Origin: Paracamarosporium sp. OC-R06-R3
Taxonomy: Eukaryota > Ascomycota > Dothideomycetes > Pleosporales > Didymosphaeriaceae
Direction: 5' to 3'
DNA length: 64,000 bases
Assembly (NCBI GenBank): GCA_019828545.1
Contig: JACVRA010000313.1
Coordinates: 124,001 to 188,000, forward strand
Shown one piece after another: positions 6,601 through 57,977 of this stretch (its first letter is position 1; each line of letters starts with the position of its first letter). The translations under genes and the position numbers were made by a program. The notes below the pieces were generated by a model. The model did no database searches. It saw only the letters and a program-made list of their open reading frames with translations, and was not told the DNA's origin.

Positions 6601-8067
6601 TAAGTTACCCGAAGTGCTTGTCGTGCTAGAGTGTTCCGATGTATTTAAGGCATGGGACAGCAGTGTCCTGTGGAGGGAGGGAGCACTCGAGGTGAGCGGG
6701 TTACGGCAGCAATGATTCGGGACGCATCGACTGTTTGCTAAGCGCGCCAAACCGGGCATAGCTGCGGAAAAATCGTGGCTGCAACCGTGTAGGACGGGAA
6801 CGGTGGCTGGTTACTCAACACTCTGAGCATATAGGCGCGAGGTATTTACCGCATCTGCACCGCTAGAACCGAGTTTACCGAGCCCTACACAGTGTCTTGC
6901 CCTTGAGTAGACATACACTCAGAATGGTAGCTCATTAGGAAGGAGAGGCGTGATCCTGTGGACTCGCAGAGCGTACGCATTGAAATACAACACCTCAATT
7001 AGTATTGCCTTATTTTCTCTACAGATCTTATGGGGGCACGAAATCTAGGTGTTCGCTTTGAAGGGATCGAGATAGACTTTCTTGATATAGTCCATCATCT
7101 TTGCTGGCTAAGTCTAACAGAATGTCTGCTACAGGAGAGGCAGCGCATCATCACTTATATAGAATAGATATTAGCGAGCACTGCACACTGAGGGAGAAGA
7201 AAAGGCTATATCCTCGTCCCCAGTCTTAGTCCAAGGCAACGCCGGATGAGGGCTATGCCACGTCATTGTACCTCGCGACAACCGCACAAGTCCTTTTAGT
7301 GTCAGATCAATTCGATCCGTCGATTGAGATCTCCCGGTTCATTGAGATTAACGGAAGAGGGCTGTAGGGCAAATTTGCGATGCTCGCCTACTCTTCGAAC
7401 GCGTAGGCGATGTCAGATTTGACCTCAGCTTCACCTTCGAAAAGCAGGTCGCTATCTTCCTCGAGCTCTCTACTACTATGTGTGAGTGGGCGGCAGAGTG
7501 CTCGCTACTATTGAACCGTCGTCAACTACGCGGCGCTTTCTTGACTCGTAGGCGACGAACAAACGCGGCAAGAAAGGAATCGCAAACGACGAGTGTATTT
7601 ATCATCCCAACGTATTCTTGCGCCTTTTGTGTGAGGCTTCTCGCTGTTTACGATTGTGGCAAACTTCTCATTCCGAGTCTAATTTCCGAAATTAGCACGG
7701 AATGTGGTCGCTCGAGCGCAAACGATGTCTGCAAGCAAAACCACAACTACGAGATGGAAGAAACGGAAATTATCGCAAACATTCCTCTCTGAAGATAGCA
7801 CAGTAATGCTTGCGGAGAGGAGCATATCGGCGCGAAAACCTTTTATACTTCACTTCATGTCTCTAAAGCTGCAGTGCAATGCTTTCTGAAAGAGAAGCAT
7901 AAGCTTGCGAATATTCTCTGACCAACTGACTAACAAGCCCAGTCGTCAATGTGAGTATCTTACCTTGAATCGGTGTCTCTGATGCAGTCTGCAAAAGCTC
8001 ACTTAGCAACAGCAAAACGATTTCTGCCCGCTATTGAACCGCGTGTCATTGACTCATTGGCGCAACT
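6601..8067. other. Long intergenic stretch
   Basis: About 1.5 kb. Contains only short frames, the longest (104 codons at 7478-7792) without recognisable features. A strong branch-plus-acceptor (CTGACTAACAAGCCCAG) ends at 7942 and a strong donor GTGAGT starts at 7951, bracketing 8 nt; this may be part of the 5' region of the BTB gene downstream. Confidence 0.4.
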
Positions 8068-8742
8068 ATGCACATTACGATTAAAACACCGCAACGTTCC
8101 TTCATTACCGATCCTGAACATTGGCTGGGCGAAAGTAAATATTTTGATAACCTGTTGTCCGGAAAATGGGGCGACAAAGAGAAGGATGGCTCATACTTCA
8201 TCGAAAGCGACGCCCACATCTTCGAACATATCCTTGGATATCTCCGTTCCGGAGTTCTTCCCGTTTTCTGGGATATGAAAACAGGTCACAATTTCGCGCT
8301 CTACCAAGCACTACTGGATCAATCAAAGTATTTCGCTATTGATAGGCTGCAAAAGTGGTTATGCGAGCGAAAATATTTAGACGCTGTCAAAATCCATTAT
8401 ATGGCTAAAGAGACTCAAGATCGAGAAACCTACCGGAAATATACTATGAGTTGGCCCGACGGTCGCACGTCCATGGTAGAGGATCGCTTTGTAGAAATTA
8501 CCACAAGTAGCAATATGGACATCACTATGGTTCCCGTCACACAACGGACCAATGTATTTTATTGCCCCGATGGAAAGCATGGCCGGAGTCATGAAGAGTA
8601 CTGTAGGAGCTGCATTGACCGGGCCAGAGTCTCTGTGAATGGTGGATGGAGGAGTGAAGACGAACTCAAGTGGTGTATTGTTGGAAAAGAAGTCGTTTTC
8701 GACCATGATCTTTGTGCCAATTTCGAGGGGATGGTCAGTTAG
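8068..8742 (+). CDS. BTB/POZ (T1, KCTD-like) domain protein
   Basis: Single open frame of 224 residues. Residues 1-70 look like a T1-type BTB domain: the opening strand pair, then FDNLLSGKWG, DGSYFIESDAHIFEHILGYLR and SGVLPVFWD, the last being the usual YFIDRD...F..IL.YLR.G.LP pattern of KCTD and potassium-channel tetramerisation domains. The following helix LLDQSKYFAIDRL also fits. The first strand is weakly conserved and in-frame stops lie just upstream, so an upstream exon cannot be excluded. The C-terminal half has clustered Cys and His (YCPDGKHG, EEYCRSC) and no known domain. Such proteins oligomerise and often act as adaptors for cullin-3 ubiquitin ligases; that role is inferred from the family only. 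Confidence 0.7.
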   Translation: MHITIKTPQRSFITDPEHWLGESKYFDNLLSGKWGDKEKDGSYFIESDAHIFEHILGYLRSGVLPVFWDMKTGHNFALYQALLDQSKYFAIDRLQKWLCERKYLDAVKIHYMAKETQDRETYRKYTMSWPDGRTSMVEDRFVEITTSSNMDITMVPVTQRTNVFYCPDGKHGRSHEEYCRSCIDRARVSVNGGWRSEDELKWCIVGKEVVFDHDLCANFEGMVS

Positions 8743-9472: not shown

Positions 9473-9587
9473 GTCGCTTTAGCTCACTTGGGAGAGCGCC
9501 AGACTGAAGCAATCTGCCCCTGGCAGCAAACTTCGGTTTCATTCGAATGCCATCTGGAGGTACTGTGTTCGATCCACAGAAGCGACA
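9473..9587 (+). tRNA. tRNA-Phe (GAA) with a 42-nt intron
   Basis: The sequence folds as a standard cloverleaf: acceptor stem GTCGCTT with AAGCGAC (7 perfect pairs, 9473-9479 with 9580-9586), D arm GCTC-GAGC, anticodon stem CCAGA with TCTGG, anticodon loop CTGAAG-A with GAA at 9506-9508, and T arm CTGTG-TTCGATC-CACAG. Box A (TAGCTCACTTGGG) and box B (GTTCGATCC) are both good. The intron at 9510-9551 sits after position 37, as in eukaryotic nuclear tRNAs, and contains CTTC, which can pair with the anticodon GAAG. The mature sequence is close to yeast tRNA-Phe through the D, anticodon and T arms. It is followed by T runs. Confidence 0.93.
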
Positions 9588-9588
9588 A

Positions 9589-9598
9589 TTTTCTTTTT
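9589..9598 (+). terminator. RNA polymerase III terminator of tRNA-Phe
   Basis: TTTT then C then TTTTT directly after the discriminator base of the tRNA; T4 or longer ends Pol III transcription. Confidence 0.75.
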
Positions 9599-9986: not shown

Positions 9987-11684
9987 TCAATGCGTGTTAC
10001 GCAACCCGGCATTGTAGGCGAATAGACTAGCTACGATTGCCACCGTCGCAATCCCCGTCGAGGCCGCAAACGAATACCTGATACCGTCGTAGTAGATCAA
10101 TCGCGCTTTTAATTGGATATCCGGAGGCAAGCTGCGGAGCGCAGTGACTGAATGTCTGATACTGTCGATGATCTCGTCTTTATTCGGGATCCCCACCAGG
10201 GCGTCTGGAAGTCTCCAGTTCAGTGTGTTTTGAACGATAGCAGCACTGATGGCTACGCCCCATACTGTCCCTAGGGATCTGACCAGGTAGACAGTAGATG
10301 CAGATACGGCGTGATCTGAACTTGTTAGCGGGACCATGGCTGGTGATAGGAACTGCGAACGCATACCTGAGTGATCAAACGAAGCTAGTGTGGTGAACAG
10401 AGTAGCTGGATATATGATACCTTGTCCGAGGTTGGCAGGAAAGATAAATACCATGTATTTCCACGTGTGATCAGAGAAAGATAGAGAGGCGACTAGTCCA
10501 TTTCCAATAGCCATGCACAACGCTCCTATCCTTACCAATGTTATCAACTTACCCCAGCGCGACATCACGATGCCTGCAATGAGACCTCCCACAGGGGTAG
10601 CAAGGGATGGGATCGCAAGCCGTGCGCCAGCCTTTGTGGCAGTGTCTAGTAGCACTACTTGGAAGAACAACGGAAGCATGAAGAGATATGCATAAGCGGC
10701 CGTTCCAGCGCAGATGTTCGCAGTCTGGATCGCAATCGGGTTCCTTCCGCGCAATTGACGCAAAGGAATGACGGGAATGGCGCTGGTCCGGGCCTCGACC
10801 CAGATGAAAGCTCCAAGCAGCACGAAACTGCCGACTAGCGAACTGATCACCCATCCGTTACTCCATGGCAGTTCGTTGCCGCCTAGACTCAGGCCCACGA
10901 GCTGCACCGAGATACCTGTCACAAGCAGCAGGGCACCCAAGAAGTCTACCTTGTCTCGGATCTCTTTCCAACTCGGATGAAGTTCGATGGGGTTTTTGAT
11001 GACGATCCAACCAAGGACAAACGCGACAGCAGAGATGGGCACTTGCACTAGGAAACACCAACGCCAGCCAATGGAGTCGGCAATGGAACCACCAAAGGAC
11101 GCTCCACATATTGAACCGAAACCAAAGATGCCATTCTGTAGTGCTTGGTACATGCCACGTTTCCGGAACGGAATCATGTCCGAGTTAACGATTGTCGCTA
11201 CGTGGTTGTGTCAGTCATGTGCCTAAGCTTAAATGTACAGGCACTCACCCATCGTCATTAATCCTCCCCCTCCGAACCCTGTCAACGCGCGCATCGCATT
11301 TGCGACAATGATATTGTTCGCAAGACCACATCCTAAACATCCTGCCGCGAACGTGACGGTTGATACAAAGAAGCACACACGTCGTCCGAAAATGTCGCTG
11401 AATCGGCCGTACAGCGGTTGAAAAGCAGTGCTGGTGACAAGATACGCTGTTGTGAGCCATGACGCCGTGTTCGCAGCATCAAACTTAGAGCTGATGACAG
11501 CATACGTCGCTGCCGTAATAGTACTATCGAATCCATATAGGAAGACGTTCGCGAAAATGGCCAATTCAATCCAGAAAAATCCTCGCGGGGGTTTCCAATT
11601 CTCTTCCTCTGGTGGTCTCAGCAGAAGGGGTGTGTTTTCTCCAGGTTCCTGGTCAGCATTCTCGGCGTCATGCGGAGGTGCCAT
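9987..11684 (-). CDS. MFS transporter (DHA2-like, about 14 membrane helices)
   Basis: Three exons on the minus strand (11684-11249, 11197-10367, 10315-9987) with 51-nt introns (GTGAGT...GTAG and GTATGC...TTCAG), giving 531 residues. The second intron removes an in-frame stretch: splicing restores FDHS-DHAVSASTVY, the usual family text. Helix 1 and motif A region read FLYGFDSTITAATYAVIS and PLYGRFSDIFGRR; GFGGGGLMTM and SDMIPFRKRGMYQALQN are typical of fungal drug/H+ antiporters related to the vacuolar basic amino acid (VBA) group. The acidic N-terminus has ENTPLL, a possible vacuolar or endosomal sorting signal. It lies tail-out next to the repeat-peptide precursor, so export of the peptide product or vacuolar storage is the likely job. 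The substrate is inferred from context only. Confidence 0.88.
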
Positions 11685-12091
11685 GTTTTGTGTAGCATCA
11701 TGGCTGTTTCTGCAGTGTATGAGCCTCGTTTGCTGGTCCCTGTTGTTTTGAGGCTAAGAGATTGCGACATCTCACGGGTTCTGAGGCAAGCGCTAGCATC
11801 AGTTTCCGATCTTCTTTGAGGTGGGGCTTGCATGATGTGCCCCGCGCGCCGCTTGGTCAACACTATAATGATACAATGACATCACTCATAAAGAACTTGC
11901 TTCACATGGATCATAGGGATATGATTGGCTCGCAAGACATTGCATTTGTTTGCTGTCTCACATCAGCATCTCCTAAATCTCATCGGTAACTAGACGAAGA
12001 ACTGCAAGAGATGGCATGTGCCCTCCTACGATTTCCACCATATACTCCTGATATCTGATTCCTTCCCTTTGGTCTCGCAGGTCGTGTGAAT
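11685..12091. other. Spacer between MFS gene and peptide precursor
   Basis: About 400 nt holding the MFS promoter and the precursor 3' region, both on the minus strand. No supported gene. Confidence 0.5.
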
Positions 12092-12678
12092 CTACTCCTG
12101 TCGCTTGTAAATGATCTTGGTGAAGCCTTCGTCAACAGTGGGTGCAGATTCGCGCTTGTAAATAATCTTTGAGAACCCCTCATCCACTGAAGAAGCAGTG
12201 TCCCGCTTGTAAATGATCTTTGAAAAGCCCTCATCCACCGACGAAGTAGTGTCCCGCTTGTAGATGATTTTGGAAAACCCCTCATCAACGGTGGGAGCCG
12301 AATCGCGCTTGTAGATGATCTTGGAGAAACCTTCATCAACTGTAGGAGCACTCTCCCGCTTGTAGATGATCTTGGAGAAGCCTTCATCGACGGTGGGTGC
12401 AGATTCGCGCTTATAGATGATCTTAGAAAACCCTTCGTCGACAAGGGCAGCAACTTCTCTCTCATCCTGGTTCGGATTAGCTTTCACTACGACAGCAGCT
12501 GGCCATAGCCAATGACAGAATTATGAGTATAACTTGTGTTCGTATTGGTGCTTCCAAAATATCACAGTGTACTCGATAGACTTCTGTCCTCGTACGGTAA
12601 ACTCACTAGGTCTGGAGTTGGAAGAGCATATGCCTGCATAGCGAACAAAGCAGGAACAAGAGCGTTGAGGAGTTTCAT
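12092..12678 (-). CDS. Kex2-processed repeat precursor of a candidate dikaritin RiPP
   Basis: Exon 1 starts at ATG 12678 and encodes a clear signal peptide (MKLLNALVPALFAMQAYA, then LPTPD). Exon 2 (from about 12498) holds a short leader and seven 12-residue units VDEGFSKIIYKR, the last with T for S, separated by 5-residue spacers (ESAPT x3, DSAPT, DTTSS, DTASS). Each unit ends in the dibasic KR cut by Kex2 in the Golgi. This is the architecture of UstA, PhomA and AprA-type precursors, whose core lies just before KR; here that would be FSKIIY or a shorter part, with aromatic residues suited to UstYa side-chain cyclisation. The best donor (GTGAGT at 12606) does not match the phase of the best acceptor (CCAG at 12499); weaker donors at 12602, 12581 or 12572 do. 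About 160-170 residues. Function is inferred from repeats and neighbours. Confidence 0.85.
12101..12442 (-). repeat. Seven tandem 51-nt repeats inside the precursor
   Basis: Six full 51-nt units plus one 36-nt partial unit, each coding 12 conserved residues. The copies differ at many silent positions while the protein stays nearly identical. Confidence 0.95.
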
Positions 12679-13175
12679 GACTGCTAGGTTCTTTGGGTAA
12701 CTGGAATGATGAGCTATCAAGCGATGTTGAATACTGTCGGTTCTACAGCAACCTCTTTATATTCACATTCTATGTGCAATATCATCAACTTCCGCTTATT
12801 TCCGGACGTGACAGGATTTATTTGCAGCCCGCACATTCTCCTGGTACGTACGTACTACCTAGTTGCATTAACTTAGTTCGGCAGGTCATGGTAGAATGGC
12901 AGATACACTACTCGAACTTAAACGTCAATCCCTGCTGGAAAGTTGAGATATTTCAAGATCTATCCAATGATTCTCAGATGCTTTGCTATCAGGACCATGT
13001 TCCATTACCGGCTAGGCATGCTGTTCTCCAGAATCTTACTAGTGTGCCAGCGCAAAATACTGCCTCGTTTTCAGTGCCCAATTTCACGGCATGGCTAGAT
13101 TGTTCCATGGTCTTTTAATAAGCACTCTTACTGTATCCACATAGTTAGAGAAACCAACTTGCATCATTCTTCCCT
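12679..13175. promoter_or_regulatory. Divergent promoter region between precursor and UstYa gene
   Basis: About 500 nt separating two genes read outwards, so it should contain both promoters. An open frame of 141 codons at 12693-13118 has no protein features and overlaps the expected upstream regions, so it is not called. Confidence 0.55.
12755..12761 (-). promoter_or_regulatory. TATA box of the peptide precursor gene
   Basis: TATAAAG on the minus strand, about 77 nt upstream of the precursor ATG, a normal distance for fungal genes. Confidence 0.5.
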
Positions 13176-14160
13176 ATGGATCGTCTTGTGGAAAAACTGA
13201 ACCTTCAGTTCGCTCAGAGGTATCGCTCTGTCCGTCAGCAAGATCTTCACGACGACAGCGAGGATTTAGAAAAAACGAGCACAAACTCGACTGGTTTTAT
13301 TTCGCATAGGAATACGAAAGAAAGCGGTTTGAAAAGCTTGTTAGCGTTATGGATTCCCTGGGTCTGTGTTCTTTGTTTGCTCGTCTCGAACTTGTACACT
13401 TGGGCGAAAATAAGGACTATCAGAGGTGATGGAGCTATCTTTTGTAAGTTGACTGACGGTGCCCCTTGAATGTTTGCTTGCATCAACTAACCTATCATTA
13501 TAGCTCCTGTGTCTCCTGTGCTGAAGTATAAAAATATCGTTTGGACAGCCGGTGTCGAAGACGACAAAACACCATATCAAGGCCATCCCAACGAGGAGAA
13601 TGACCGCCTATGGGAGGACCTTTACAATTGTAAGTTAGAAGCTACAGTATTGCGCAGCAAAATTTCTGACTATATCCAGTTGGAATGTCTAGAATCCCTA
13701 TGAGCGATGCCTCTCGGCTAATAAACCGAACGACGCCTATTCCTGGAGATCCAGGCTACTACATGGTAACGATAGACGTCTTCCACGAACTGCATTGCTT
13801 GGTATGTCACCAGCCGCCTACGCATTCATGCCATGGCTAACATTCTCCCACTAGAACATGATGCGCAAACGGATCTTCTGGAACGAGACCATGGGAGAAC
13901 TAGACAGCATGTACTCCCTGAGGCACATGGATCACTGCATCGACTCGCTAAGGCAAAGTCTCATGTGCTCTAGCGACATCACTGCGATACCATACGCATG
14001 GTATCCTAAATATAATCAGGTTCTACCAACGACTGGGGTTACGCACACATGCCGCGATTTCAATGCGATAAAGGAATGGGCCAAGGAGCGGTATACCTCC
14101 CAGATGGAGCTAAAGATACACGTGGAGGATCCACTAGGTAATGTAGTGCATGAGTCTTGA
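13176..14160 (+). CDS. UstYa-family (DUF3328) oxidase 1
   Basis: Four exons (13176-13443, 13504-13629, 13680-13801, 13855-14160) with good donors and acceptors; 273 residues. A cytosolic N-terminus is followed by one membrane helix (about 54-76), then a lumenal domain with the two hallmark motifs, HELHC (167-171) and HMDHC (196-200), the latter in the family context HMDHCIDSLRQSLMC. In ustiloxin, phomopsin, asperipin and cyclochlorotine pathways UstYa proteins are required for oxidative cyclisation or hydroxylation of the peptide core, and the HxxHC motifs are thought to bind metal. The gene starts 500 nt from the oppositely read repeat precursor, which makes it the prime candidate for crosslinking the core Tyr or Phe. 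No broken motif is seen. Confidence 0.92.
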
Positions 14161-15077
14161 GGCACGCGATGAGGGGCTACGTTAGGTAGAGTCATTGGGG
14201 CGGGTAAAGCGGGGTTCAGTGGCGTGCTTCGTGTCTGATACTGTGACGTTATCTGAGGTTGGTTTGTAGTTTATTCACAATACCTCAAGCTTATCTCACA
14301 CAGATTGTGAAGACAAGGTCCAGAATAGCCCGCACGAGACCAATTAATTGATCCCGTTATCAAGTCTCCATTTTGAGGCACATTTCTGAATCTGCGGAGA
14401 GCAACCGGCCTAGCGTGAAAGAAGAAGGTGAAAGGATTTAGGCGTTACTCTCGCTTGGAGACGTGTGCACTAACCTGATTTTAGCTTTATGGTACGCATT
14501 CACGATAAAACTATGGTCACTCCCGTCCTGAAAGCTACACAAAAGCAGCTCTCATTACTGGATCCAGTTCAAAATGCAATATATGAGAGCGAAAAAATCT
14601 CATGTATTTGGAGGCTAGACGCACGAGTCTAGTGTTGTGCTTCTACCCTTTGTAGAAGGTAGCTATGTTATCGTGCAGATACGCATACGCCTAGAGGCAC
14701 TTGAGCTGAAGGAAGCTCGGCAACGGACTATCTAGTCACGAGTATCCACGATGATGCTGGCGCAGCTCAATCACTTTCGAGGCTCTCCCTTCGCGACCTT
14801 CGCGACCTTCGACATACTTTTTCAAGATATCATGTCCAGGCACTAGGTGGTGCAGTCGAATACACAATTGCGTTCTCGATTATTTTTAGCCCTCAGAGAC
14901 AGTTAGGAAGATCGGGTATAGAGACTGTTCAAAAAGAAAAAACTCGACTTTCTCGCACGAGGTGGCGTCAATGCAAGGCGCTTAGCGATACCTGATTGGA
15001 GGCAGTTCCACAACTTTATATACACCGCCTTTCCCCTGATTGTGTTTCTTGTCCGCTTTCCAAAACGACTCTGAACG
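14161..15077. other. Spacer between the two UstYa genes
   Basis: About 0.9 kb without a supported gene. It includes a small tandem repeat (TTCGCGACC, about 2.5 copies) near 14790-14812. Confidence 0.5.
15015..15022 (+). promoter_or_regulatory. TATA box of UstYa-family gene 2
   Basis: TTTATATA about 60 nt upstream of the ATG. Confidence 0.5.
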
Positions 15078-15776
15078 ATGGCGGACGAACGAGACCCCGC
15101 CCTCACGACTCTAAACGACGAGGAGAAGTTCAAAGACTTCTCCGACGTGGACTCAGAAGAGCATGAAGATAGCCCATATCTATCAAGGTCACGTTCCTAC
15201 CGGACTGTGTTCTTGGTCGCTTCCGCTGTCGTGATCGTCGTTCTGTTGGCCTTTCTTGTAATATCCTGGACAAAGGCACCACGCCTTAAATATGATCAAT
15301 GTGGAACGAACGCAGACGAGGCTCGCGCACGAGGCTGCGTCTTCGAAACGACAGGATTTACATGGCTTGCGCCCGAATGCGCTGACCCCGATACTGAAGC
15401 CGAATTCCTCGACTACATTGTGAAGAACGAACTGAAGCTGTATCGTACCGAAAATTATACAGAAGAAGTGAGCATAGAGGAGGTGCGAAGGGGTAATGGA
15501 CCGGGTTTCTTCGTACGCCAGCACTATCACTTGACGCATTGTTTGTTCTTAATGAAGAAGCTACACCGGATGAGGGATAAGGGTGCGATGATAGACGGTC
15601 AAATTATGCCGCTACATCATACAGAGCACTGTATGGGACAAAACCTACAAGCGCTCGCAGACACGGGGTTCAGGAAGCATGATATACAATTCTCCTACAC
15701 AAAGTATCCGTACTGTGGAAAGCCAGGCGGATACAATCTGGTTTGGGAGGCGCAGGGCACATGGACGGATTCGTAA
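15078..15776 (+). CDS. UstYa-family (DUF3328-like) oxidase 2
   Basis: Intronless frame of 232 residues. A polar, acidic N-terminus precedes one membrane helix (about 43-64). The lumenal part has CGTNADEARARGCVF and FTWLAPECAD, then two HxxHC motifs: HLTHC (151-155) and HTEHC (181-185). This is the divergent branch of the UstYa superfamily seen in many fungal peptide clusters, shorter than gene 1 and without the LRQSLMC context. Like its neighbour it should sit in the secretory pathway with the domain in the lumen, where the signal-peptide-bearing precursor passes. Having two UstYa proteins is usual in dikaritin clusters (UstYa and UstYb). Division of labour cannot be read from the sequence. 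Membership of this cluster is inferred from distance and strand. Confidence 0.82.
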   Translation: MADERDPALTTLNDEEKFKDFSDVDSEEHEDSPYLSRSRSYRTVFLVASAVVIVVLLAFLVISWTKAPRLKYDQCGTNADEARARGCVFETTGFTWLAPECADPDTEAEFLDYIVKNELKLYRTENYTEEVSIEEVRRGNGPGFFVRQHYHLTHCLFLMKKLHRMRDKGAMIDGQIMPLHHTEHCMGQNLQALADTGFRKHDIQFSYTKYPYCGKPGGYNLVWEAQGTWTDS

Positions 15777-16098
15777 AGCATCATTCATCAACAATTACCA
15801 TGTTCAAGTTGGCGCAATTGCGATGCAAGATGACAGGGTTCCTTATGTTTGATTGTACTTACAGTTTGCGTAACGTCATGAGGGGCACCCGCAAGTGTGA
15901 GCACGCCATCACAGGAACAATTGACGCTCGGCGTGCATTTAAGAATGCCTCTCCAACACATCTTCCACATAAAACCAAACAAAAAACTTCCATATACGCC
16001 CTTAAAAAGACGAATAATTTGGTATAGTTCGGAAACCTTCACAAGGTCAATGTACCCTTCCTGCGAAATGCCGACTCAGACATGTCCTAACCACGGTA
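15777..16098. other. Spacer
   Basis: About 320 nt with no supported gene between UstYa gene 2 and the arylsulfotransferase-like gene, read in the same direction. Confidence 0.5.
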
Positions 16099-17824
16099 GT
16101 GCTGTTGAACGCCATGAAGCATTTGATCGCCTTAGCAATTGGATTAAAGCTTGCAGTAGCCGATTGGCAGTACAGATCACGCCCTGATCTAGCACCGCCA
16201 CGCTTGAACATTACGATTCCAGCTGCCGACAACGTGGAAAAGGGCTATCTCTTCGTAGCCCCCTTTGCCGGCTTTCCCGACACTGCGACCGAGCAGCATG
16301 GTCCTCGCCAGGCCGGACCGTACATATTCCGCGATGATGGCGATCTCATTTGGTCTGGCTATGGGATCTATTCCATTTGGGCGACCAATTTCCAAGCCGC
16401 GAAGTGGAAAGGCAAGGATGTCTTGTTCAGCTTCGAAGGTGACCATAATGCAGGTTATGGTCACGGCCACGGGCATACCACGTACGTCAAGAGCCCTTGA
16501 CTGGCGAATTTCGACTAATTTTGCGAAAGCATCCTAGATCAAAATTATGAGACGATCCGTGAATTGCGCGCAGGAAACCACAAGCTAACCGACAAACACG
16601 AATTTCACATTGTCAGCGACAATACTGCCGTCATCCAAATCTATCAGCCCATTCCACAGAACTTGACGGCTTATGGTGCAGGCGAAGAGCAGCAATGGAT
16701 TGTAAATGCCATCTTCCAGGAGCTCGATATCACCACGGGTAAATTGCTATTTGAGTGGGCTAGTCTTGACCATGTGACTCCAGATGGTAAGTATAAAATA
16801 GATTTACTAGTCTGACAGCTATTGACTCCCTATAGAAGCAATACTGCCGATCAATCCGGGCCAGGCTGGTTCAGGCTACAATTCCTCTGACGCTTGGGAC
16901 TACTTCCATATCAACAGTGTTGACAAGAACTCCGACGGTGACTATATCATCTCTGCACGTGATGCATGCTCTGTTCACAAGATCAACGGTACAGACGGCT
17001 CCATCATTTGGCGACTGGATGGCAAGAATTCGTCGTTTACTTTGGGAAAGAATGTTACGTTCTGCTTCCAACACCATGCTCGGTTCCACCCACATCTGAA
17101 GAGTGAGAGGGAAGGTGAAAACATCGAGTATATCTCTTTGTACGATAATTCTGCCCATGGGACTGAGGATGGGCGTGGGAAAGAAGTTGCAACTGCCCCG
17201 ACCAGTAGCGGCAAGATCGTTAGGCTGGATACTGAGGCTTGGACTGCTGAGCTCGTGCAAGGCTTCTATCCGCCCGACAACCTGCGTTCGAAGTCGCAGG
17301 GGTCAACCCAACTTCTACCGAAGGGTAATGTCATTGTCAATTGGGGTTCAGAAGGTGCGCTGACTGAGTATGATGCCAAGGGCAACGTTCTTTTCCATAC
17401 GTATATGGACTCCGGATACCTCGGTCTCGGCGTCGAGAACTACCGTGGCTTCCGCTACAACTGGACTGGGCTACCCAGTGAAGAACCTGCTATCGTCTCT
17501 CTTCATAATGACGAAGGTACGATCGTTTATGTCTCGTGGAATGGAGACACGGAGACGAAGGTATGGCGATTCTATGTAGTGACTGGCAAGTACTCTCGGA
17601 AGCACTTCCTGGGAGACGTTCCTCGTAAAAGCTTCGAGACGAGCTTCAAGGTACCTGGAAAGCAGGTTCCCCACGTTGTTGCGGAGGCTGTGGACGCGAA
17701 AGGAAAGGTTCTGAGAACAACTGGTGTAGCCAAGCTACAGCCCGAGATCGTGCCTGCGAAGAAGGGCCTGCAGTTTCCGCCAATGGTGGTACAGAGTCAG
17801 AAGCAGGCTTGGATGGAGCTCTGA
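16099..17824 (+). CDS. Secreted arylsulfotransferase-family protein (Arylsulfotran_2-like)
   Basis: Three exons (16099-16481, 16530-16786, 16836-17824) with introns of 48 and 49 nt; 542 residues, or 537 if the second Met is used. The N-terminus MKHLIALAIGLKLAVADW is a signal peptide, followed by YRSRPDLAPPRLN, FVAPFAG and GPYIFRDDGDLIWSGYG. Later WDYFHINSVDKNSDGDYIISARD, SIIWRLDGK, FQHHARF and GNVIVNWG are the beta-propeller blade motifs of the fungal arylsulfotransferase family. Bacterial relatives move sulfate between phenols; the fungal reaction is not established. Fungal members often end in a membrane helix; here the frame stops before one, though a hydrophobic stretch lies 200 nt downstream in another frame. 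It follows the UstYa pair on the same strand, so tailoring of a tyrosine-bearing peptide is possible but unproven. Confidence 0.87.
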
Positions 17825-55855: not shown

Positions 55856-57977
55856 TCAGATAATTCGAATATCGTGTAGACCATCTTGATAGCGGCGACA
55901 AGGTAAACTCTTTTTAAGGTTCTCATCCAAACTTGCTAATAACCACTCACTCGATTCTGCATATGTCCATTTACGCGCCCAACCGATTCTCTTGAATATG
56001 CCACCTTGAATGTCCACAACGCGCAGTAGTAATACTTCCTGAAAATCTGGATATGAAACATTGAACGCGGCGGGAATGTAGAATAGCCGGCCAGCTGCAT
56101 TGTCGTCCTCATAAGCTTTCGGATCTGATGGAGGAACGTCAAGGACGGTCATGTCCTCCCTGTCATAAACTTCGGGATGCGATATGTATAGAACCGCGTT
56201 CCATCTTCTTGACTCTAAATGGGGCTTATCATTGCTCCATTCCAGAATCATCGGCCTAAGCTGTCCTCTCAGGTCCAGCCAGCCACCGGTTACACGACCG
56301 GTGATATCTTTGGTCGCGTGCTGAAGGCAAACGTCTACGATATCGATCATTGATGATCTGGTGGTTTGATAGTCTTTAATAATCCGGTGCTCAATTGATG
56401 CCCAAGACCATGAAGGAGCTCGGTAGACAGCTGGCTGCTGGATATAAGCACCTACGCTTCTGGGCCTACGGTACCATAAGAGGTCATCTTGTAAATTCCC
56501 TCGCCACATACCCGCAACGTATGTATCCGAAACTAAGACTGACATCGATTTTGCAATGCCAGACAAAGCAATGAGCTTATCGAGAGGATTCGTGAGACTG
56601 GTCTTAGAGTATAAATCGACTAATGCCATCCAAAGCTCGTACTGTGTGAAACCATGTTCGTGACCAAAATCCACTGGGCTTAGTATTATGCCATGTTTGT
56701 ATCTGTCGAGTAGCAATTTGATTCTCGCGATAGCATTGTCGTTTGCTTCATTGAGTGTGGATCCAATCAGGCTAGTGTGCCCTTCGGGATATTTCTCACA
56801 CGCTCTATGTTCTCGACATTCCCAGAATAACTGATCGTGACAAAAATGCAGGATCCGTGGAGAGAGGACTCTCTCTTGAAATACCCAACCGCGTGTATTG
56901 AGAGAACAGTTCAGCACGTTTCGTAACCACAATTCTTCATCGATAATCTCATAGTTGATGGGACTGGAACGAACGCCACGATCCTCAGTTAAGAGACTTA
57001 TATTTGACCCGTAGAGACTGGATGGATTGCGGTTCCGAGACAAACCTTCCAAACCAGAGTCCGAGTCAGAGGCTGAGATGTTGAGATGTGAATTTAGATA
57101 GACTTTATGCATAAGACCGGCTTCATTTGCCCAGTCGGTAAGATCATCCTTATCTTGTATGATGCAAAGTGAGTCTATCCATATATATCGGATGCCAAGT
57201 TGCAGTGATACGGAAATGGCATCTGCAAAAGTTGACGGTAAAGCCGATATAGGGATGTTCCGACTGAACCATGATAAATTGCTTTTAGTGAGTTTTAGAA
57301 ACTCTACCATGCCCCACCGGTGGCTTAAAGTGTTGTATGGTCCAGTGGGTGGCTCCTGCGCTGTGTGGATTAAACGCACATGGCATTGACCGTGATTGGA
57401 GACGCTGATTAGCAATAAGCGTGTTGGATACCATGTCACAGCTGCATCTGTGCGGTTGTATTTTCGGTGGGAATGGAAGCATTGATGTAACCAGCCTTTG
57501 GCGCATTCGAGCGACAATTCCGACATTGTATTGTTAGACGTAATCGAAGCCTGAGGAGCGGGCGCATGTTGGAGGCTGGTAACTGGAATCTCCTCAATGC
57601 CTAGGCTTTATTTGGAAAACTTTACACGTACCCGGTAACTTTTCCAATTTGAATTTATGGATCACTCCACCAGCACCCCAATATGTGGGTTCATATAGAG
57701 CAAAGTATAACGAGCGTGTTTCTCCTTGCCTGCCATAAAGACTAGCCACAACTAGGAAGTCAGCTTTAATCGCCGCATCATAACGTTTCTCTTGCAGTAG
57801 CCTGGTTTCTCTCGATTCTGCGTCCTCCTGTTCTTTCGTACGTATCCAGCTTTGTTTGATCCTGGAAAGCTGCAGCGATAGTGTCGTGCATATACAACAA
57901 CCTTGTTTCACGGATCGCTTAAGTGATCTGAGAGTTCGATGTTGTCCAAACTCCCACAGGCCCCAACCTGGATACAT
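55856..57977 (-). CDS. HET-domain protein (heterokaryon incompatibility type)
   Basis: Two exons on the minus strand (57977-57632, 57582-55856), 49-nt intron (GTACGT...TCCAG); 690 residues. A nearer acceptor (CCTAG) would make a 31-nt intron in the same phase, too short to be likely. The first exon has the usual HET-protein opening (QGCCICTTLSLQL, SRSLYFALYEP-like). The second has AKGWLHQCFHSH, RLIHTA, then the HET domain: YNTLSHRWGMVEFLKLTKSNL, ALPSTFADAISVSLQLGIRYIWIDSLCIIQDKDD and LNISASDSDSGLEGL. Downstream TRGWVFQERVLSPRILHFCHDQLFWEC and PLDKLIALSGIAK and YRAPSWSWAS are standard. The family triggers cell death after fusion of unlike hyphae or plays immune-like roles; this member has no extra domain. 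The partner is not identifiable. Confidence 0.93.

Follow-up and report, generated by a model that had tools for sequence, protein, structure and literature searches.

A locus on contig JACVRA010000313.1 of the fungus Paracamarosporium sp. OC-R06-R3 (assembly GCA_019828545.1) encodes a ribosomally synthesised and post-translationally modified peptide (RiPP) and is selectively maintained. It lies in a 64,000-nucleotide stretch of this contig (positions 124,001 to 188,000, forward strand), which we call the window and to which coordinates refer unless another contig is named. The locus is best explained as being of the dikaritin/epichloecyclin type, an assignment we consider likely, and its product is very probably a small secreted peptide that is cut from a seven-copy precursor and oxidatively modified, likely to a cyclic form. 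This dikaritin-type reading is well supported, since the gene content, purifying selection on the repeat and a diverged trio of homologous genes in the same genome all point to it. One of the two putative copper oxidases, protein B, escapes PF11807, the usual domain model, and such a B-type partner is a lead worth following. An earlier sequence-only reading of the window had listed a signal-peptide precursor with seven KR-ended repeats, two single-helix proteins each carrying paired HxxHC motifs, and a major facilitator superfamily (MFS) gene, and the gene models bear out this inventory, with MFS_1 matching both MFS exons (8.1e-23 and 1.8e-16). The contig carrying the window has the working label C142, and other contigs are labelled likewise (C260, C241, C148 and so on). 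The parts of the locus are as follows.

9987..11684, minus strand: MFS transporter, exons 11684-11249 and 11197-9987, 548 residues, candidate exporter
12092..12678, minus strand: precursor gene, exons 12678-12607 and 12466-12092, 148 residues in the preferred model
12101..12442, minus strand: seven repeat units VDEGF(S/T)KIIYKR with 5-residue spacers, the KR pairs being predicted Kex2-type cut sites
12679..13175: divergent intergenic stretch of 497 bases between the precursor (minus) and UstYa-A (plus)
13176..14160, plus strand: UstYa-A, exons 13176-13443, 13504-13629, 13680-13801 and 13855-14160, 273 residues
15078..15776, plus strand: protein B, intronless, 232 residues

The precursor opens with a signal-like start, MKLLNALVPALFAMQAYA (signal peptide judged by eye), which is followed by a short pro-region LPTPDL and by the seven units at a spacing of exactly 17 residues; Tandem Repeats Finder reports them as a 51-base array at 12102-12443. 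Its 140-base intron (GTGAGT...CAG) was preferred over an alternative model with a GTTTAC donor, which places 12 more residues ahead of the repeats, because the GTGAGT donor is canonical and, as judged by eye, the precursor of the diverged trio, on contig C260, is likewise interrupted by an intron after PTPD. That the mature peptide matters is indicated most strongly by purifying selection, which acts on the core and on the KR pair. Divergence was computed for every pair of the seven units as the share of sites changed, without correction. Between copies of the 12-codon repeat block VDEGFSKIIYKR it amounts to 0.785 per silent site and 0.010 per replacement site, with no replacement in the KR pair of any of the seven copies, and in the spacers (units 2-7, the differing first spacer being excluded) to 0.639 and 0.275, respectively. 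As silent sites differ and replacements are nearly absent, the copies are old enough to have diverged and have been held to one peptide sequence. The spacers vary freely.

We scanned for such precursors as open frames with at least three dibasic sites and a 5-residue word repeated at least three times, a definition that may miss split precursors. Within the 64-kb window only this gene was found, and there were no matches in 2.54 Mb of first-order Markov shuffles, a weak control because shuffling destroys any tandem repeat. The weak Pfam matches of the precursor (Vg_Tdu, FF_PRPF40A and four others) all fall under their cut-offs and were taken as repeat artefacts. No occurrence of the core string FSKIIY was found in the literature searched. 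Computed [M+H]+ values of the linear peptides are 1655.816 for ESAPTVDEGFSKIIY, 1641.801 for DSAPTVDEGFSKIIY and 770.445 for FSKIIY; one or two oxidative links would lower these masses by 2.016 or 4.031, respectively.

UstYa-A starts 498 bases from the precursor start, which places a PF11807 protein (6.5e-50, 170 bits) with two HxxHC motifs right next to the repeat precursor. It has one hydrophobic (membrane) helix at residues 50-76, the motifs HELHC (167-171) and HMDHC (196-200), and no relative in the PDB by sequence up to E = 1. Protein B also has one helix, at residues 39-70, and carries HLTHC (151-155) and HTEHC (181-185), its motifs being 30 residues apart versus 29 in UstYa-A. It thus shows the wide-sense DUF3328 pattern, HxxHC(x)nHxxHC plus one N-terminal helix. 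The 497-base stretch between precursor and UstYa-A is, by its position, a possible shared promoter of the two, and the genes of the locus would presumably be co-expressed.

The second precursor-A-B trio is found on contig C260 (locus L016), where a repeat precursor (minus), a UstYa protein A' (plus) and a B-type protein B' (plus) stand in the same order and divergent orientation as in the window. A' and B' are the best non-self genome matches of A and B in one-way searches, with 47% identity for A/A' and 61% for B/B'. The layout of the C260 precursor, with signal, PTPD and intron (by eye), is that of the window precursor, and its four units VDQAF(VNVAYF twice, VNVAYI, EGIVYY)GL share VDxxF....Y cores with it. 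What is kept between the cores of both loci is the F, a beta-branched residue at F+3 and the Y at F+5 (FSKIIY, FVNVAY, FEGIVY), so that this sister locus with its different core lets one ask which residues the oxidases need. C260 (262 kb) carries four separate UstYa loci in all, at about 38, 146, 216 and 247 kb. Homologues were compared within this genome, and our claims concern this genome only.

Genome searches with B and with its relative on C241 yielded five B-type genes at four loci, namely on C142, C260 and C241 and two on C148; the C241 query recovered four of the five, the C148 gene near 30.3 kb being a weak match (1.9e-4). The distance between the start of each of these genes and that of a PF11807 match is 1.2 to 5.7 kb; for comparison, DNA within 7 kb of such a match makes up 1.6% of the genome. 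Four B-type proteins were aligned, and common to them are the HxxHC pair and further cysteines at positions 75, 87, 101 and 213 (B numbering). A repeat precursor is present at three of the four B-type loci. On C148, the scan found none in the 19 kb fetched of the 42.6-kb contig; a precursor may lie outside this stretch or have been overlooked, or the substrate may be a peptide of another type. This contig has PF11807 matches at two places and its two B-type genes close together at C148:25612-34995. A (G/A)F core was seen in three of three precursors at B-type loci versus none of eight others, a pattern noticed post hoc in which two of the three precursors are homologous.

The UstYa partners of the B-type genes also tend to group. 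Trees of the motif regions comprised A, A', C38 and those UstYa genes of the fetched loci in which a single open frame holds both motifs; one run had 17 rows (without C38) and the other 18 rows (with C38). The genes of C76, C42 and C110 were omitted, as were second or third genes that are split over frames. In both trees the four partners of B-type genes fall in one part, in a clade that includes the long-branch C200_18k (94/98, 17-row tree). In the 18-row tree, the place just outside this clade is taken by C38, on whose contig there is no B-type match. Shuffled labels clustered equally in 10 of 500 and 12 of 500 cases, and the four B partners form one branch in 2% and 11% of the bootstrap trees.

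From these parts we propose the following pathway. The precursor would enter the secretory pathway, and kexin would cut after each KR to give seven near-identical peptides of type ESAPTVDEGFSKIIY-KR. Kex2-type cutting is supported because the KR pairs are constrained and the genome holds a kexin-type gene, its one PF01483 (P_proprotein) match lying on contig C306. Both HxxHC proteins, anchored in the membrane and facing the lumen with their catalytic parts, would then act as copper- and O2-dependent oxidases on the VDEGFSKIIY part. Here we draw on the DUF3328 hydroxylase CctR, for which the HxxHC pair is reported to be needed for activity, two coppers to be bound per chain, at a site described as planar, and O2 plus electrons to be required, and which its authors place in an organelle lumen behind one helix (PMC12435403). 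By homology to CctR, A would oxidise the peptide in the secretory pathway by copper chemistry, and B probably does likewise. Most likely, the oxidases would join the Tyr side chain to another side chain and thereby close a ring, and the peptide would leave by secretion or through the MFS pump. As to the cross-link site we can offer a guess, the kept F, F+3 and F+5 positions fitting a link from Tyr to the Ile/Val two places before it, or a Tyr-Phe link. We hold it quite likely that the peptide is Kex2-cut and modified by UstYa-type oxidases, and somewhat less firmly, by analogy with the described systems, that it is cyclised.

Several observations weigh against this picture and led us to adjust parts of the sequence-only reading, which had taken both HxxHC proteins for UstYa-type and all four genes for one candidate dikaritin cluster. 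The first assignment stands for A, whereas PF11807 fails to match B up to E = 0.1, and neither B nor its four relatives are among the genome's 75 PF11807 matches. When the profile of B was compared with eight UstYa rows, both motif regions aligned (E 6.1e-05, probability 65%, 50 columns) at a score of 39.3, above all 200 column shuffles (highest 24.3), but with the HxxHC letters masked the alignment shrank to one column and a score of 18.7 versus 18.3 for the highest masked shuffle. Because the masked profile collapses, the demonstrated likeness of B to UstYa is one of motif, helix and place. A single-sequence AlphaFold2 model of B (predicted local distance difference test score, pLDDT, of 51) was too poor for a fold comparison. 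Of the four-gene unit, precursor, A and B recur on C260, but no MFS gene is seen by eye beside that trio in the fetched stretch; the next one (by eye) begins about 5 kb past B', beyond another long open frame, and the other flank was covered for 3.3 kb. The unit conserved between the loci is therefore precursor, A and B, and the MFS gene is a candidate member only. Within this genome, the homologue searches that the earlier reading had called for recover A' and B' from A and B, but a direct search with the window precursor misses the C260 precursor, which was recognised by position and pattern, so that the kinship of the two precursors rests on place, layout and pattern. Furthermore, the C260 cores run into GLKER with KR sites some way upstream, whereas the window core ends directly in KR, and the cutting pattern therefore differs between the loci. 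Finally, ustiloxin and phomopsin are reported to need a tyrosinase (PMC7329392), and none of the genome's 39 PF00264 matches lies on C142.

Modification also need not mean a ring, because hydroxylation and halogenation, besides cyclisation, are reported activities of DUF3328 proteins (PMC12435403). The Kex2-cut peptides could accordingly be hydroxylated, halogenated or desaturated by the HxxHC proteins and stay linear, an outcome for which the first two of these activities are thus a precedent but which we consider unlikely. The cases described beside Kex2 repeat precursors, namely ustiloxin, phomopsin, asperipin, victorin and epichloecyclin, are cyclised (PMC7329392, PMC9233826), and repeats containing Y are reported to be commoner beside DUF3328 genes (65.6% vs 38.2%, PMC7329392), the core here having one Y. 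Much more improbable still is that the locus makes plain linear secreted peptides, pheromone-like or signalling, and that the adjacent oxidase genes are unrelated to them. Mating factors are linear, and DUF3328 genes adjoin 22% of 7878 fungal Kex2 repeat proteins according to PMC7329392, leaving the majority without such a neighbour. Against this, the same source describes mating factors as almost never standing beside DUF3328 genes, and C260 has precursor, A and B in the same order, the latter two being homologous to those of the window.

A further alternative departs from our preferred reading in the role of B only: UstYa-A would be the sole modifier, B a structural or accessory protein (supplying copper or electrons, or holding the substrate), and the MFS gene a chance neighbour. 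It is a minority view in our assessment, although the failure of B in PF11807 and its own cysteine pattern would fit it, as would the C260 trio, beside which no MFS gene is seen by eye, and the proposal by the CctR authors that Cu(I) or electrons come from an accessory protein (PMC12435403). With two complete HxxHC motifs and a single N-terminal helix retained, B looks like an enzyme rather than a mere helper. A bolder idea, which we rate as doubtful as the accessory role, would make B the founder of a distinct branch of HxxHC copper oxidases, invisible to Pfam, which would be the obligate partner of one UstYa lineage, perhaps in a mixed A-B dimer, and act on D-x(1-2)-(G/A)-F... cores; precursor-A-B trios would then be a RiPP subclass of their own, half described by PF11807-keyed mining. 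If B is a real partner oxidase, fungal RiPPs have more tailoring enzymes than PF11807-based mining counts, and the trio would be a convenient system for testing how two HxxHC proteins divide the work. No description of the B-type subfamily was met in the literature consulted, which included one narrow look directed at it by name and outside whose coverage lay subscription papers including those on victorin and phomopsin. B-type proteins may already be covered by an InterPro or PANTHER entry for the phomopsin cluster, in which case B would be less novel.

How the locus is classed depends on the definition applied. Dikaritins were originally defined by five genes, and a later definition takes DUF3328 as class-defining (PMC12048977). 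By this current usage, which asks for DUF3328 plus a repeat precursor, the locus is dikaritin-type. The precursor, with a signal peptide (by eye) ahead of tandem repeats split by kexin sites, is of the dikaritin kind. By the five-gene definition the locus falls short on tyrosinase; an MFS gene is adjacent here and was not seen by eye beside the C260 trio, and no peptidase was named. The statement of the sequence-only reading that tyrosinase, methyltransferase and peptidase are missing holds as far as tested, that is, for PF00264 on C142 and, for the latter two, for the 18 open reading frames (ORFs) and gene models of the window scanned with Pfam, which cover a subset of its ORFs and none of which was named as such a family. 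These absences set the locus apart from ustiloxin and phomopsin, which it resembles in the signal peptide, the Kex2 repeats and the presence of more than one DUF3328 protein (PMC7329392); furthermore, Tyr begins the core in YAIG and YVIP, whereas it ends the core here.

The epichloecyclins of Epichloe (gigA cluster) are close in kind, with a secreted repeat precursor that is presumably kexin-cut and a DUF3328 protein in a four-gene cluster (PMC7317419), and with a likely Tyr-Ile cross-link (PMC9233826), which we count as a further likeness. They differ in having the kexin gene inside the cluster, whereas the sole kexin-type match here is on another contig, and in their imperfect 27-residue repeats, versus 17 residues here, with another core sequence. 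The asperipin-2a cluster is described without a peptidase (PMC12048977) and with one DUF3328 gene (PMC7329392), whose protein has been proposed as the enzyme behind both rings (Ye 2019 by its title, via PMC12048977); it differs in core and ring pattern, and two HxxHC proteins are present here. Victorin likewise derives from a multi-core precursor that is likely Kex2-cut, and its ring joins a C-terminal Phe to an internal Leu (PMC9233826); the core here also ends in an aromatic residue but has a different sequence. CctR shares one N-terminal helix, a lumenal domain and the HxxHC(x)nHxxHC motif (PMC12435403) with the proteins studied here, but acts on a non-ribosomal peptide, and protein B differs from it in lacking a PF11807 match and in its own cysteine set.

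The view of the locus as an unusual minimal version did not stand, small sets being known from the epichloecyclin (four genes, PMC7317419) and asperipin-2a (no peptidase described, PMC12048977) clusters and at least ten other repeat-precursor/UstYa loci being present in this genome. Its 43.1 Mb on 337 contigs contain 75 PF11807 matches, which form 47 loci when grouped at 10-kb spacing, a large expansion of the UstYa family. Besides the window we examined 18 of the 47, picked as better-scoring or B-type-bearing and not at random, and found a repeat precursor at 10 of these 18. The window locus is thus ordinary in kind, being one of at least 11 repeat-precursor/UstYa loci among the 19 examined. 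Repeat words at the other loci include QWYDLTYID, AAATYAPLVYVGG, QYHGKNVVK, FAPWYRATNILPASD and VNTRVNGSQNYTGPGNG. For comparison, Umemura reports an average of 5.25 Kex2 repeat proteins per strain in Ascomycota (PMC7329392), and a count for Venturia inaequalis gave nine dikaritin clusters (PMC9632046). A candidate ustiloxin/phomopsin-like locus is C23:92428-96666. This locus, with two UstYa matches, holds the one tyrosinase match in the genome that comes within 20 kb of any UstYa match (distance 1.3 kb).

Shortly downstream of protein B, an arylsulfotransferase-family gene (PF14269) is found at 16018-17824 (plus strand). We considered it as a fifth cluster gene and did not count it in: none was seen by eye beside the C260 trio, and among six PF14269 loci in the genome only that of the window is near a UstYa match, two others lying 100 and 177 kb from one on the same contig and three on contigs without PF11807. 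A BTB-like frame at 8053-8742, under its Pfam cut-off, and a GH35 gene at 18.6 kb were taken as ordinary neighbours. To the left of the MFS gene, the stretch at about 9478-9590 (plus strand) resembles by eye an intron-bearing transfer RNA gene, though ARAGORN, at the settings used, reports none. Further along the window, a HET-domain (heterokaryon incompatibility) protein is encoded at 55856-57607 on the minus strand (PF06985, 4.2e-28).

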